Assembly: GCA_021797575.1 (NCBI GenBank)
Contig: JAJZZN010000030.1
Location: 1-35,886 of the forward strand
Origin: Microcaldota archaeon
GTDB taxonomy: Archaea; Micrarchaeota; Micrarchaeia; Micrarchaeales; Micrarchaeaceae
DNA: 35,886 nucleotides
Direction: 5' to 3'
Below the pieces are notes generated by a model, which did not search any database, was not told the origin of the DNA, and saw only the letters and a list, made by a program, of their open reading frames with translations. The position numbers were made by a program, and so were the translations under genes. Below are positions 2 to 4,550 of this stretch, one piece after another (position 1 is the stretch's first letter; every line of letters begins with the position of its first letter).

Positions 2-652
2 GAGGAGGCATTGGCTTTCATGAAGGCGTTCAATGCCTCGCTCCCGGGGGCGATGGAGCTGGAGCTTGAGGACTTTTTCGTCAGGGCTGTGTTCGTAGGC
101 AAGAAACATGAAAAGGATACAGCAGGAGCAAAGAAGAAATACGCGATGCTGAGCACATCAGGCAGGATAAAGATACGGGGATTCGAGCTTGTGAGGAGGG
201 ACTGGTCTAAGATAGCCAGGGACACGCAGAGGAATGTGCTCGAAACGATACTCAAGGAGGGCAGCGCCGAGAAAGCCGCCAATATAGTGAAGGATGTTGT
301 GCAGCGCCTGAGGTCAGGCACAGTGCCGCTGAGCGAGCTCGCGATAAGCACGCAGCTCAGGAAAGGCATAGACAAGTACGACTCGAAATCGCCGGAGCTT
401 TCGGCTGCCAAGAAGGCCGTAGAAGCAGGAGTGAAGAGCAAGGACGAGGTCGAGCATGCTGTGATAAGCTACGTGATAACCTCGCATGGGAGCTCCGTAT
501 CGGACAAGGCGGAGCTGGAGGAGATGGCCAAGGATTACGATGCTGACTATTACATCAATAGCCAGGTGATGCCCGCAGTGATGAAGATACTTAAGGAGCT
601 TAACTACAACGAGGATGAACTGAAGAACCTTGGCAAGCAGAAGAAACTGTGA
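2..652 (+). CDS. polB: Family B DNA polymerase, C-terminal fragment (cut by window start)
   Basis: The frame is open from base 2, so this is the last 216 residues of a gene beginning outside the window. It matches the end of the palm and the thumb domain of archaeal replicative B-family polymerase. Visible family motifs are LPGAMELELEDFFVRAVFV, then KKKYAML, then RGFELVRRDWSKIARDTQ (the VRRDWS block), a helical thumb, and the closing YDADYYINSQVMPAVMKIL block. The palm catalytic aspartates and the exonuclease domain are upstream and not visible. No PIP box is obvious at the extreme C-terminus (KNLGKQKKL). The methionine aminopeptidase gene starts 40 bases downstream on the same strand, so the two may be cotranscribed. 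Confidence 0.93.
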   Translation, partial: EEALAFMKAFNASLPGAMELELEDFFVRAVFVGKKHEKDTAGAKKKYAMLSTSGRIKIRGFELVRRDWSKIARDTQRNVLETILKEGSAEKAANIVKDVVQRLRSGTVPLSELAISTQLRKGIDKYDSKSPELSAAKKAVEAGVKSKDEVEHAVISYVITSHGSSVSDKAELEEMAKDYDADYYINSQVMPAVMKILKELNYNEDELKNLGKQKKL

Positions 653-692
653 TGCAGCAATGCCGTGGGAAATAAAGATCAAAAGGGATAGA

Positions 693-1613
693 ATGGAAGG
701 AAAAGAAGAAGAAAGGCTGAACGATGAAGATATCAAGACCATAGAGGAGGTTGGAGCGCTCTCTTTCAAGGCGATAAACAAGGCAAAGGAAATGGCCAAG
801 CCCGGAATGAAGCTTATAGAGCTTGCCGATGGAGTGGAGAAGTTCATCAGGGACAGCGGCGTCGATATAGCTTTCCCGATAAACCTTTCGGTTAACGTCG
901 AGGCTGCGCACTACACGCCGTCGCTCATGGACGATAGGACCATAGGCGAGAAGGATATAATGAAGATAGACTTCGGCGCTGCCAGAGACGGCCTTTTGGG
1001 CGATTGCGCCCTCACAGTAGATTTCTCTGGGGAGAACCAGGACCTTGTAGAGGCTTCAAAGAGCGCCCTGGAAAATGCGGTGAGCATGGTAAAGGCTGGG
1101 GTGAAAGTTAGGGACATAGGGAAGGAGATAGAGAGGACCATAAAGTCCATGGGCTTCAGCCCAGTAATGAACTTGGGTGGACACGGAGTGGGGAGGCACG
1201 ACCTGCATGCCGACCTTTTCATACCAAACTATGATAACGGCAGCGATGACGAGCTCGAGGAGGGCAAGGTGATAGCTATAGAGCCGTTCGCCACCACGGG
1301 CAAGGGAATGATAACAGAAGGAGATACTTGCGAGATATACTCTTTCAACGGTGAGACTGGAGTGAGGTCGCAGGGGGCAAGGCAGGTGCTTGCTGAAATA
1401 TCCAGCAAATATCCGTCAGAGCCGTTCGCCGCGAGATGGCTGTCCAATATAATACCCTCAAAGTTTGGCCTATATGCGGCGATACAGGAGCTGGTCAGGA
1501 GCGGCGCGCTGGAGCCTTACCCGACATTGATAGAGGTGAGCAAGGGGCTGGTGTCGCAGGCCGAGGTATCCATGCTCGTAGAGAAGGACGGTTGCAAAGT
1601 GCTCACAAAATAG
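693..1613 (+). CDS. map: Methionine aminopeptidase, archaeal type II
   Basis: Cytosolic dinuclear metalloprotease that removes the initiator methionine from new proteins. Numbered from the chosen start (306 residues), the metal ligands expected for the family are present: D93 in KIDFG, D104 in GDCALTVDF, H164 in GGHGVGRHDLH, E197 in AIEPFAT and E291 in QAEVSML; H73 in AAHYTP is the usual substrate-side histidine. The type II insertion lies between the histidine and glutamate ligands. In-frame starts exist at 630 and 660, but they overlap or crowd polB and add a tail the family lacks. ATG at 693 puts the first helix where Pyrococcus MetAP begins and follows an AAAAGGG stretch. It converges with the next gene, 14 bases away. 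Confidence 0.93.
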   Translation: MEGKEEERLNDEDIKTIEEVGALSFKAINKAKEMAKPGMKLIELADGVEKFIRDSGVDIAFPINLSVNVEAAHYTPSLMDDRTIGEKDIMKIDFGAARDGLLGDCALTVDFSGENQDLVEASKSALENAVSMVKAGVKVRDIGKEIERTIKSMGFSPVMNLGGHGVGRHDLHADLFIPNYDNGSDDELEEGKVIAIEPFATTGKGMITEGDTCEIYSFNGETGVRSQGARQVLAEISSKYPSEPFAARWLSNIIPSKFGLYAAIQELVRSGALEPYPTLIEVSKGLVSQAEVSMLVEKDGCKVLTK

Positions 1614-1627
1614 GCTTTGGCAGTCTT

Positions 1628-2041
1628 TCAGGTTATGGACCTGGAGATCCTGGCAAGCTTATGCCCTTTGGCCTTCAGCTCTATCTCGTAGAACATTCCG
1701 AAGGCCAGCTTGTGTACAGTATATCCCCTGTCCTTCAGCTTGCCATACAGGTCGTTTAGCAGCATGCTTGCATCGCTTGGGCTGGCAAGCTCGCCGAAGA
1801 GATGAGCAAACGGATTCAGCACTATGGTAGATACCTTTATCTGCGCCGTTATGTTTGAAAGCTCTAGCACGGCCTTGTCTATTATGTCGACGCGCTTCGC
1901 CATGTCGCCCTTCTCAAAGCTTATGAACACAAGAAGCGATTCGCCCACATCGAGCGGCGAGCCTTTCTCAAGAAGAGGCGACCTCCCCTCATCCTTTGGT
2001 ACTGCCTTAAAATAGTCCACATGCCATGCCATGAATCTCAT
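1628..2041 (-). CDS. Freestanding archaeal ThrRS editing-domain homologue (D-aminoacyl-tRNA deacylase-like fold)
   Basis: 137 residues corresponding only to the N-terminal editing domain of archaeal threonyl-tRNA synthetase, which hydrolyses Ser-tRNA(Thr). No catalytic or anticodon-binding domain follows. Matches to the family: HVDY (7-10) near the start, LVFISFEKGD (37-46), NPFAHL with H80, ELASPSDA (84-91), AFGMF (113-117), KGHKLARISRSI (125-136). Compared from memory with the Pyrococcus abyssi domain, the histidine equivalent to H83 is kept, but Y120, K121 and E134 align with F117, Y118 and R131. It may therefore have changed specificity or be non-catalytic. ATG 2041 follows GGTGAG. It sits 27 bases after the ABC permease and is probably in that operon. 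Confidence 0.85.
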   Translation of the reverse strand: MRFMAWHVDYFKAVPKDEGRSPLLEKGSPLDVGESLLVFISFEKGDMAKRVDIIDKAVLELSNITAQIKVSTIVLNPFAHLFGELASPSDASMLLNDLYGKLKDRGYTVHKLAFGMFYEIELKAKGHKLARISRSIT

Positions 2042-2068: not shown

Positions 2069-2863
2069 TCATAATATGGCTTCCTTCCTGAAGCTCTTTA
2101 TGCTGAGCGCTATCACAGCTATGTCTATCAGCACCAGAGCAAGTATCAAGTACTTGAAGAAAGATACGTTTATGTCAGCGAAGCCCGTTATTGCTGCGAA
2201 TGGCAGCAGTATTACCGGGAGCACAAGCAGCGAGCTTATCTGCTGTGCCTCCTTCACGCCGCGCACATGCGCAGATATTATTACTACCACGCCTATTGCC
2301 GCAGCGGCGAAGAACGGCGATGATGCCAGCATGAGAAGCCACTCAGCATTTGGCAGTATGTATACGCCGAACGAGCCGTGCGACAGTATGTCTATTATGG
2401 AGCCGTATATCGCGAACACTCCCACCGTAAGAAGTATAGTAGGTATCAGAGACGCGAGTATTTTCCCGGTCAGCAGCTCGGACTTGCTTATTGGTGTGGA
2501 AAGGAGGGCTTCTGATGTCTTTCTCTCCTTCTCGCCTGAAAAGCTGTCTGCTGCTATCACCGTTGCGGTAAGTATAGGTATCGTGAGGAATATCGGCCCC
2601 AGGACATTTAGGGAGAAGAAGCTCATGAATGAGACCTTGTTAAGGGTGTTTGCGGGCAGGTTGGCTACAGGGAGCAGTGCAAGCTTGACCGCTATGGAGG
2701 GGGCAGCATACATGGTAACGTATATTGTCAGTATCGGGAGCACTATGGAGAAGAACAGAGGTATGCCCATCATTGGGCCGTATATTGATATGCTGCTGAA
2801 TGTTTCCTTTATGTCCTTGGCTGCTACTGCAAACACGTTTCTGCTATCCAATGCGACCACCAT
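2069..2863 (-). CDS. ABC-2 type transporter permease
   Basis: Integral membrane subunit of an ABC exporter, 264 residues. About six hydrophobic segments are visible (around 30-60, 95-112, 140-160, 178-200, 210-225, 235-255). The cytoplasmic signature GEKERKTSEALLSTPISKSE just after the second membrane region is typical of ABC-2/NatB-like permeases. The start at 2863 lies 20 bases inside the 3' end of the ATPase gene, a classic translational coupling for ABC pairs. Substrate is unknown; NatAB-like sodium export and drug or peptide export are family precedents, and nothing in the sequence decides between them. The freestanding tRNA-editing domain gene follows on the same strand. Confidence 0.85.
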   Translation of the reverse strand: MVVALDSRNVFAVAAKDIKETFSSISIYGPMMGIPLFFSIVLPILTIYVTMYAAPSIAVKLALLPVANLPANTLNKVSFMSFFSLNVLGPIFLTIPILTATVIAADSFSGEKERKTSEALLSTPISKSELLTGKILASLIPTILLTVGVFAIYGSIIDILSHGSFGVYILPNAEWLLMLASSPFFAAAAIGVVVIISAHVRGVKEAQQISSLLVLPVILLPFAAITGFADINVSFFKYLILALVLIDIAVIALSIKSFRKEAIL

Positions 2864-3749
2864 TCATGAAATCCTCTACAGTGGGCTCCTCGTATGAAAC
2901 ACTTATTATGGCTGCGCCCCTGTCTATTAGAAGCTTGAGTGTAGAATTTATGTCCTTGTAGCTTTTTACCTTCATGCTTATGCTCTGCGCGTTGGCGGAA
3001 TCGACCCTTATGCCCTTCATCCCTGACAGCAGTTCTTGGCTTACGGGCTTCGCGAACTTGACCCTGACTGTCATCCCGGGGAACACGCTCTTGTATATGT
3101 TTTCCAGGCTCGTGCTGCCGGCTATCCTGCCTTTCCTAAGGACGGTTATGCTGCCCTGCATCCGCTCTATCTCGTCTATCTTCTGCGTCACGTATATTAT
3201 TGCAGTGGTGCTTGCCATCCTGCGCAGCATGCCGCGCAGCTCTTCTGCAGAAGCGGCATCGAGGAATGCAGTGGGTTCGTCAAGAAGCATCACTTCTGGA
3301 CTGCTGAGCATAGCCCTGCATATTGCAACCTTCTGCTTTGTTCCGCGGCTGAGCGTGTAAACCTTCCTGCCTGCATATTCATATGCGTCGAACTCCTTCA
3401 GCAGCCGCGCGGCGTGAGAGCCTATCTCGCTGTCACTGAGGCCATACAGCCTGCCGAAGAATTTGAGGTTGTCGAGAACGCTCAGGTAATCGTAGAGGCC
3501 ATAGTTGTCGGATATTAGCGATACGCCCTTCCTTACCGCATCATCATAATAGGGGTTGCTGCCAAGAACGCTTATGCTGCCTTCATCTGGCTTGTACAAG
3601 CCGGCTATGCATCTGAGAAGCGTGCTTTTGCCGGCGCCGTTCGGGCCCAGAACCATGTTTATGCCCCTGCCTGCTTTCATGCTGACCTTGTACAGTGCGG
3701 TTACCTTGCCGAAGCGCTTCACTATGTTTTTTACCTCTATTTCAGCCAT
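2844..3749 (-). CDS. ABC transporter ATP-binding protein
   Basis: Cytoplasmic ATPase (301 residues) that pairs with the overlapping ABC-2 permease. The order of motifs is complete: Walker A GPNGAGKST, Q-loop region ISDNYGLYDYLSV (the usual Q is replaced by D or N here), signature LSRGTKQKV in place of LSGGQ, Walker B VMLLDEP, and a D-loop. The switch histidine region reads IIYVTQK, where most families have TH; T-Q replaces it. A C-terminal extension of about 85 residues resembles the regulatory tail of DrrA/NatA-type ATPases. ATG 3749 gives the standard MAEIEVKNIVKRFGK beginning; in-frame ATGs at 3755, 3770 and 3785 are possible, the last lying close to the predicted transcription start. Confidence 0.88.
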   Translation of the reverse strand: MAEIEVKNIVKRFGKVTALYKVSMKAGRGINMVLGPNGAGKSTLLRCIAGLYKPDEGSISVLGSNPYYDDAVRKGVSLISDNYGLYDYLSVLDNLKFFGRLYGLSDSEIGSHAARLLKEFDAYEYAGRKVYTLSRGTKQKVAICRAMLSSPEVMLLDEPTAFLDAASAEELRGMLRRMASTTAIIYVTQKIDEIERMQGSITVLRKGRIAGSTSLENIYKSVFPGMTVRVKFAKPVSQELLSGMKGIRVDSANAQSISMKVKSYKDINSTLKLLIDRGAAIISVSYEEPTVEDFMNGGRIG

Positions 3750-3804
3750 TATCATCGCCCTGGGCCGCATCCGATGGATCCACATGTGACATGAACCGTA
3801 TCGC

Positions 3805-3840
3805 TCACCTATAAATATTTGGAAATATAGGTATATATGT
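3805..3840. promoter_or_regulatory. Divergent promoter pair between the ABC operon and the unknown four-gene operon
   Basis: Two TATA-like boxes lie back to back. On the minus strand ATTTATAG (about 3809-3816) predicts initiation near 3787 for the ABC ATPase. On the plus strand GTATATATG (3831-3839) predicts initiation near 3858-3862, which coincides with the ATG at 3858 and leaves no room for a ribosome binding site. The plus-strand message would then be leaderless. Positions are read by eye with the usual 25-27 base TATA-to-start distance. Confidence 0.5.
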
Positions 3841-3857
3841 GCTTTTTCGGCCCATAG

Positions 3858-4550
3858 ATGACTATTATGGCAAAATCTGAACGTAAATCCAATGGGATTG
3901 GCACCACGAAAAGCCATGACCCAATCGAAGTAGTAGCAATAGATTCGGCACTCAACATGTTCCGCGATATGCTTCTTGACGAATATACGCGGCGCTTCAA
4001 GGCTGGCGACAAGCCTGGAGAAATAAAGGCCGTACTGTCTAGGACGGGGATCAGATTTGAGGTGCTCTTTAAGGACATGCCCAAGGATAAAGAGCTGCTG
4101 GTTGATAGGGTCAACAATGAGCTGTCCTATATATCGAGGAACTATTATGAGCTATTCGCTTTGTACAAAGAGCTGTCCGCAACACTGAATATTGTATATA
4201 CCTATTCTGGGCCCATATCCGGTGAGCAGTATAAGGACAAGGCGCGAAAATACTTAGATGCCATCTCCGGGCTAAAGCCAGACAAGCAGTACGATGAGCA
4301 AATGGGCCTCCAGAGGGCAGCAATTGACGCCCTGAAAAGCGTGAATGATTGCCCGGATATTATTAGGATAGGCAGGAGGGATGAGAAGGAGCTTGACACG
4401 CGCAATGTTCTATTGAATATCTCGCTGATAGAGCTGGACAGGCTCGAGCAGGAGCTAAGTCTCACAACAGGCTATATAGACACGTATAAGGAGATACTTA
4501 CCAAAACGCTTACTGCCCTCAATCTGTCTTTGAAAAAGAGGGCAGTATGA
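3858..4550 (+). CDS. Uncharacterised helical protein, 230 aa
   Basis: I do not recognise a family. The protein is soluble, highly charged and predicted almost entirely alpha-helical, with no membrane segment or signal peptide and only one cysteine (in NDCPDII). Two stretches look able to form coiled coils: the middle (VDRVNNELSYISRNYYELF onward) and the C-terminal third (NVLLNISLIELDRLEQELS). The start at 3858 fits a leaderless transcript from the TATA box at 3831-3839; a second ATG at 3867 is the alternative. It heads a same-strand run of four genes with a second unknown protein, a PAP2-like membrane protein and proline dehydrogenase, with gaps of 27, 16 and 13 bases, so a common transcript is likely. 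Confidence 0.7.
   Translation: MTIMAKSERKSNGIGTTKSHDPIEVVAIDSALNMFRDMLLDEYTRRFKAGDKPGEIKAVLSRTGIRFEVLFKDMPKDKELLVDRVNNELSYISRNYYELFALYKELSATLNIVYTYSGPISGEQYKDKARKYLDAISGLKPDKQYDEQMGLQRAAIDALKSVNDCPDIIRIGRRDEKELDTRNVLLNISLIELDRLEQELSLTTGYIDTYKEILTKTLTALNLSLKKRAV

Follow-up and report, generated by a model that had tools for sequence, protein, structure and literature searches.

A conserved, freestanding paralog of the archaeal ThrRS editing domain with replaced residues at three active-site positions

The window, i.e. the whole stretch of DNA that was analysed (35,886 nucleotides, contig JAJZZN010000030.1 of assembly GCA_021797575.1), carries on its minus strand a complete open reading frame (1628..2041) that starts with ATG and encodes 137 amino acids without a fused partner. 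From the reading frame, the profile match and the fold, the product was assigned as a freestanding paralog of the ThrRS editing domain (PF08915). An ABC-2 type permease gene (2069..2863, minus strand) lies directly upstream after a gap of 27 bases, and the run of three begins with an ABC transporter ATPase gene (2844..3917, minus strand). The same order was found in G002, a genome of the same genus (locus L062); elsewhere the neighbours differ. Co-transcription of the permease and the free domain in the window's genus is a guess. A type II methionyl aminopeptidase gene (630..1613, plus strand) is the convergent neighbour and is mentioned for context only.

The window protein matched PF08915 over profile positions 1-137 with 92.5 bits (3.2e-26; curated cut-off 30.2), and phmmer matched it to P. 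abyssi editing domain (NTD) chains of the PDB at 3e-23 to 1.5e-21. Against NF011500 (ThrRS-2 / Ser-tRNA(Thr) hydrolase), 56.5 bits were obtained for the NTD part only, below a cut-off (362) that requires the part behind the NTD. A structural model was predicted with AlphaFold2 from 33 aligned family members (pLDDT 92.8, pTM 0.88). The best PDB matches to this model were the editing domains of P. abyssi, M. jannaschii and A. pernix (Foldseek TM 0.87-0.94, 0.92-0.93 and 0.85-0.89, respectively; 0.85-0.94 overall), to which it was aligned by VIA-align with Z 21.8-23.2 and an rmsd of 1.3-1.6 A over 133-137 residues. DTD chains (Z 14.5-15.9) and ATD (Z 13.5) were the next structural matches. The proposal of an earlier note, that a ThrRS editing domain of conserved fold stands alone here at 137 residues, was thus borne out.

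Around the active site, the window protein and the P. abyssi domain were aligned without gaps: H80 corresponds to H83, F117 to Y120, Y118 to K121 and R131 to E134 (P. abyssi numbers second). On the minus strand, where the codons were read by eye, the H80 codon occupies 1802..1804, the F117-Y118 codons occupy 1688..1693 (F 1691-1693, Y 1688-1690) and the R131 codon occupies 1649..1651. Alignment and codons confirm the same note's reading of one kept and three replaced residues. Unless stated otherwise, P. abyssi numbers are used below for all positions.

Two sets of sequences were compared: a core of 34 free rows (the window and 33 named loci) and 94 fused rows, namely 42 from Micrarchaeota, 30 from Thermoplasmatota and 22 from the phylum of G308, a Bathyarchaeota-labelled MAG (by inference Thermoproteota). 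The label "fused" rests on the length of the frame; it takes in some shorter ones (L055 with 219 aa and L096 with 447 aa, at the least), and four of the 22 are ThrRS-ed-like by length. Positions 120, 121 and 134 were F, Y and R in 34/34 core members, and K121 and E134 were present in 94/94 fused rows. The FG-to-KGH spacing is 14 residues in all 128 rows (34/34 core free, 94/94 fused), therefore no realignment can return the lysine to position 121 and the register is firm. As the same residues recur in relatives, F117, Y118 and R131 (window numbering) are not sequencing errors.

According to PMC4491819, seven side chains lie within 6 A of the scissile bond: P80, F81, A82, H83, Y120, K121 and E134 of the partner subunit. 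The corresponding residues of the 34 core members were P (34), F (32) or Y (2), A (33) or V (1), H (34), F (34), Y (34) and R (34). The remaining pocket is kept in the free group (P80, F/Y81, A82, H83, F117, G118, K128, G129, H130), and further invariant or near-invariant residues, in window numbering, are W6-H7, G19-R20-S21, N76, E119, E121 and R134. A swap of R131 and E119 (also window numbering) as one coupled salt bridge was not supported: L080 has T at 119, with R131 kept. Two divergent short copies were placed outside the core: L122 (Thermoplasmatota, 131.6 bits, contains X; included in the trees) has N121 and R134, and L047 (genome G032, 59.8 bits; left out of the trees and of the core count) has K121 and V134. 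As a separate observation on the fused domains of Micrarchaeota (L004-L033, L049-L061), position 120 was Asn in 33 and Thr in 9, i.e. in 42/42; PMC4491819 calls this position, Tyr in P. abyssi, completely conserved.

A profile built from 14 members (A1) was used for a scan of 301 genomes of the phylum: 30 carried a frame of 137-181 aa at 186-235 bits, and the others reached at most 94 bits among the matches listed. The free copy was found in the window's family (24/30) and in a second family of the same order (6/30). As its presence is patchy (30/301 genomes), the function of the free domain is dispensable within the order. In a set of 60 genomes (own included), 14 carried the free copy. The earlier note had proposed a search of the genome for a full-length ThrRS: none was found in the window's own assembly (659 kb, 77% complete), where the best TIGR00418 matches scored 48 and 40 bits (cut-off 384) and the free domain was the single PF08915 match, but all 13 other free-bearing relatives also had a fused frame (566-634 aa) with the editing domain. 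The 5.5 kb around the ThrRS of G002 had no DNA match in the own assembly, in a search run without a positive control; on this basis, the ThrRS of the window genome most likely sits in an assembly gap.

The 33 named loci come from 21 plain Micrarchaeota MAGs, from Ca. Micrarchaeum sp. A_DKE (genome complete), from one Ca. Mancarchaeum, from MAGs under the labels Marsarchaeota (two) and Bathyarchaeota (one), and from seven Thermoplasmata MAGs (L084, L087, L088, L089, L090, L092, L093), five of which also have a separate longer PF08915 frame (447-635 aa). Sampling of other phyla gave a free copy in 5/389 Thermoplasmatota genomes (four at 191-201 bits and the divergent one at 131.6) and in 1/300 genomes of the phylum of G308; this sole member (L081) may be a binning error. 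Carriage by viruses was not supported: no relative was found in viral_contigs.

A tree was built from 108 NTDs. Its free copies (35 rows, with L122 and without L047) formed one side of a branch (support 100/99) and were closer to canonical Thermoplasmata/Pyrococcus NTDs than to fused NTDs from the window's order, which formed a clade of their own (100/99). A second tree was built from a subset to which rows from the phylum of G308 were added (81 rows, including 20/36 free rows, 14/42 fused Micrarchaeota (micF) and 15/30 fused Thermoplasmatota (theF)), and the 20 free rows were again supported at 100/99. Because the domain is short (137-139 columns) and a long-branch warning applies, the attachment point of the free branch is uncertain. 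The Thermoplasmata free rows sit in two places among the Micrarchaeota rows, which suggests that the free gene passed between phyla. Close contact between acidophilic Micrarchaeota and Thermoplasmatales is described in PMC8975820 as a possible route of gene transfer. In five free-copy Thermoplasmata MAGs (L096, L097, L098, L100, L101), the editing domain of the longer ThrRS-like frame nested in the Micrarchaeota clade of the 108-NTD tree (three of the five again in the 81-row tree), as if ThrRS itself may have moved between Micrarchaeota and Thermoplasmata lineages.

Estimates of dN/dS were 0.02-0.21 in the seven usable pairs of eight, and 0.063 for the window and its sister genome. The pair L083/L085 was out of register and was discarded; L085 is likewise shifted by two residues in alignment A2. 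The low dN/dS and the fixed residues argue against a relic and, judged from sequence, the free group is a real, conserved and rewired paralog group and no decaying fragment. The earlier note had offered three explanations: a new substrate or a regulatory binder is favoured by the fixed replacements at 120, 121 and 134, and both the dN/dS values and the conservation of the group in several genera and phyla speak against the redundant, decaying spare.

Further freestanding PF08915 copies were found in the phylum of G308 (L167, L168, L169, L171, L172, L173, L179). K121 and E134 are kept in L169, L171, L172 and L179; L167 and L173 have Q134, and L168 has D121 and K134, so that a change at 134 (Q, K) recurs outside the free branch. 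These seven fell outside the free branch in three places of the tree (L172; L167, L173 and the long-branched L168; L169, L171 and L179), and on that basis the freestanding state seems to have had more than one origin. The set from which they were taken (thpShort, 11 rows) includes L122 and one duplicate (L151/L179), which leaves nine distinct rows; two of these, L170 and L174, are truncated at contig ends. L168:111-647 (minus strand), the second and freestanding editing-domain copy of genome G745, adjoins a D-isomer 2-hydroxyacid dehydrogenase gene, and L167:965-1444 (plus strand) and L173:1039-1536 (minus strand), both with E120 and Q134, each lie near an AIR-carboxylase-domain gene (PF00731). 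The very divergent lone PF08915 protein of G032 is encoded at L047:4968-5399 (minus strand). No fused PF08915 frame was found in that genome (77% complete), which has a 625-aa frame with tRNA_SAD, possibly a bacterial-type ThrRS.

Compared with known systems, the free domain has the fold, the length, H83 and most of the pocket near the scissile bond in common with the archaeal ThrRS NTD (P. abyssi, M. jannaschii). It differs in that it is unfused, has F/Y/R for Y(N,T)/K/E at 120/121/134 and coexists with a fused copy: the His83 of the canonical Ser-tRNA(Thr) editing domain is present in 34/34 core members, and the Lys121 and Glu134 features are absent (Tyr, Arg). The editing domain of crenarchaeal ThrRS-ed/ThrRS-2 (A. 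pernix) shares the fold and also acts in trans; a report on trans editing by ThrRS-2 was reportedly given by Korencic et al. in 2004. The four ThrRS-ed-like frames of 383-414 aa, named by length alone, have K and E at 121 and 134, unlike the free group. ThrRS-2 has an anticodon-binding part (PMC4491819), whereas the free group consists of the domain alone. Standalone "tRNA-Thr-ED" proteins, linked to SepCysS, are in print (PMC5424206, PMC8762117); compared by published description only, they are likewise single freestanding PF08915 domains of archaea, including DPANN. The freestanding state inferred in the earlier note is therefore real but not new in itself, as the K121/E134 copies in the phylum of G308 also indicate. 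Freestanding PF08915 domains are already known, and the rewired F/Y/R group was not encountered in the literature searched: no paper on it was found among open-licence PMC papers, judged by title and abstract start.

Unlike the SepCysS-linked tRNA-Thr-ED proteins, the free group occurs in a lineage where no SepCysS over the TIGR02539 cut-off was found: 0/60 genomes, with no match in the own, incomplete genome and with 2/14 control genomes over the cut-off. Matches below the cut-off (17-56 bits) occurred in 56/60 genomes and were taken for other PLP enzymes. A SepCysS-linked role in the window's lineage was rejected accordingly. DTD2 (PF04414) was found in 52/60 genomes, own included, and in 12/14 free-bearing ones, so that replacement of DTD2 was also rejected as a general role; the only free-bearing genomes without DTD2 (G010 and G033) belong to one genus and are near-complete. 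AlaRS-sized frames (889-1012 aa) with tRNA_SAD were present in 44/60 genomes and in 12/14 free-bearing ones, and missing AlaRS editing was not supported. AlaX-like frames, assigned by frame length (236-344 aa), were found in 14/14 free-bearing genomes and 21/46 others (Fisher p about 1e-4, kinship ignored) when the fragments of G001 and G023 were left out, and in 23/46 others (p about 4e-4) when they were included. At its far end (35119-35865, plus strand), the window itself encodes an AlaX-like protein for Ala-tRNA editing that stands alone and matches PF07973 and the C-terminal part of PF01411.

No conserved operon was found overall across the 34 loci. A DJ-1/PfpI-like gene is next on the same strand in nine (L067, L068, L070, L071, L073, L076, L079, L083, L085; Pfam was run on two), and an Rpr2-like gene follows it in the same nine (Pfam was run on one). 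A GNAT acetyltransferase gene is next in three (L065, L075, L080; Pfam was run on two), and the other 22 loci, some near contig ends, have neither neighbour. In L086, the free gene lies behind an EF-2-like gene (sequence read by eye). Five Thermoplasmata loci (L087, L089, L090, L092, L093) have a gene of 130-145 aa nearby on the opposite strand; the one tested with Pfam (L087) is an iron-dependent repressor. Pfam was applied to 10 of these neighbours. The gene neighbours vary and name no substrate.

The effects that such replacements may have can be gauged from PMC4491819, where catalysis by three NTDs is reported to rest on the 2'-OH of A76. The double mutants Y120A/E134A of P. abyssi and A. 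pernix were slowed only about 1.5-1.7 fold and retained Ser/Thr discrimination; Ser-tRNA(Thr) deacylates spontaneously at 0.004 per min. H83 was ruled out as catalytic, though P. abyssi H83A is inactive on Ser-tRNA(Thr). K121M in three NTDs kept its affinity and was severely compromised in activity because the water is displaced; E135A abolished the activity of the M. jannaschii domain. In P. abyssi, E134 is a cross-subunit contact to the alpha-amino group. The same study reports that the NTDs remove Gly as well as Ser and deacylate Gly-tRNA(Gly). The phrase "altered catalytic residues" in the earlier note holds for the replacements, but "catalytic" is too strong for side chains that are near-dispensable (Y120, E134) or non-catalytic (H83), the severe effect of K121M and the fatal one of E135A notwithstanding. 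From the mutants and the RNA-based catalysis, Y121 and R134 do not by themselves make the domain dead, nor is it bound to be the same enzyme; it could also be a binder.

On balance, with confidence a little above even, we favour a trans-acting aminoacyl-tRNA deacylase paralog whose substrate has changed from that of the ThrRS NTD. The best reading of the alignments is that the A76 pocket is kept and the aminoacyl pocket is rewired. The protein would be a descendant of the editing domain of archaeal ThrRS, now tuned to a different charged tRNA, and would act in trans as a putative homodimer. The terminal adenosine A76 of the tRNA would still be bound in the kept pocket, and cleavage would be carried out by the 2'-OH of A76 and main-chain groups, as in the three NTDs. 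Tyr118, in place of Lys121, would position the attacking water, and Arg131 of the partner subunit would replace the Glu that holds the alpha-amino group, so that the accepted aminoacyl group would differ. As the lost Glu holds this group across the P. abyssi dimer, the accepted aminoacyl group is the likeliest change, and the fact that the replacements are invariant points to selection for something specific. The substrate is probably other than Ser-tRNA(Thr): most likely it would be either a tRNA other than tRNA(Thr) that carries a small amino acid, or an aminoacyl group with a modified alpha-nitrogen, and bulk Ser-tRNA(Thr) would be left to the fused domain. The co-occurrence of another freestanding editing factor, the AlaX-like frames, agrees with a deacylase. 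Against it, E135A kills the M. jannaschii domain, an arginine at the alpha-amino site is unfavourable for ordinary aminoacyl groups, and the free copy is patchy in its presence and has variable neighbours.

Since K121M is severely compromised yet binds substrate well, K121Y could also be an inactive binder. Such a non-catalytic protein would hold the 3' end of aminoacyl-tRNA uncleaved (to protect or sequester it) or would regulate the fused ThrRS, for example through mixed dimers, which are conceivable because two subunits form the site. Tyr at 121 in 34/34 core rows is in keeping with this explanation, as is the binding of a cognate Thr analogue by NTDs without cleavage, for which an ester-protecting role was suggested (PMC4491819). 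The natural Met of DTD at the position equal to 121 (PMC4491819) speaks against it, and mixed dimers with the resident ThrRS are made less likely by the position of the free group, nearer to canonical Thermoplasmata/Pyrococcus NTDs than to fused NTDs from the same order; we regard a binder as unlikely, though as the main rival of the deacylase. If the side chains are largely dispensable, the replacements might instead be neutral and the protein a plain trans-editing backup for Ser-tRNA(Thr), like crenarchaeal ThrRS-2. The small cost of Y120A/E134A, with discrimination intact, and the known standalone tRNA-Thr-ED proteins agree with a backup, but K121 matters in three NTDs and E135 in M. jannaschii, neutral positions would drift where F/Y/R are fixed, and the free-copy relatives already own a fused editing domain with K121 and E134, so that this role appears doubtful.

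A special case of the deacylase reading would be a remover of L-aminoacyl-tRNAs with a modified alpha-nitrogen (an aldehyde adduct, e.g. of methylglyoxal, or an N-acyl group), in which Arg131 would meet the altered nitrogen or its carboxylate. It would fit the charge reversal at the alpha-amino contact (Glu134 to Arg131), the DJ-1/PfpI-like and GNAT neighbours (9/34 and 3/34 loci), the two near-complete free-bearing genomes without DTD2 (G010, G033) and the reported inactivity of peptidyl-tRNA hydrolase on formaldehyde- and methylglyoxal-modified L- and D-aminoacyl-tRNA (PMC10942605). Against it, DTD2 is present in the other 12/14 free-bearing genomes, the PfpI loci share wider synteny (Rpr2 in the same nine) and may go back to a single event, what these DJ-1-like proteins do chemically is a guess, and 22/34 loci, some near contig ends, have neither neighbour; we rate this substrate as improbable. 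Stated in full, Micrarchaeota and some Thermoplasmata would share by gene transfer a neofunctionalised ThrRS editing domain that, with the cross-subunit Arg for Glu, has gone from proofreading Ser-tRNA(Thr) to an L counterpart of the aldehyde clean-up by DTD2, which we put forward as a long shot. The lack of a ThrRS in the own assembly might hint at an artefact, i.e. a truncated or misassembled ThrRS gene, or at a relic; given the low dN/dS, and given that many species, among them A_DKE with its complete genome, have the same stand-alone frame as well as a separate fused one, this is scarcely credible.

For a deacylase with a changed substrate, the closest precedent for the kind of event proposed is ATD: according to PMC5802732, this Animalia-specific paralog of DTD has changed signature motifs, has a conserved arginine at another place and acts on a new substrate. 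As proposed for the free domain, ATD acts in trans, and it too is the paralog of a proofreading domain whose fold is similar and whose signature residues have been altered. The two are related through the fold only (Z 13.5). The ranges of the structural alignment suggest that the arginine of ATD and Arg131 are not at equivalent places. The DTD-to-ATD parallel shows that this fold family can acquire a new substrate by such changes.

In 2015, PMC4491819 considered it conceivable that, with no part played by side chains, the active site was beyond rewiring and the fold had not spread to other jobs, and its authors left open why dispensable residues are strictly conserved. A natural group with other residues fixed at three of the seven scissile-bond positions makes both points testable on one small protein. 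The completely sequenced Ca. Micrarchaeum sp. A_DKE, which is kept in stable co-culture with its Thermoplasmatales host (PMC8975820), has a member of the free group.
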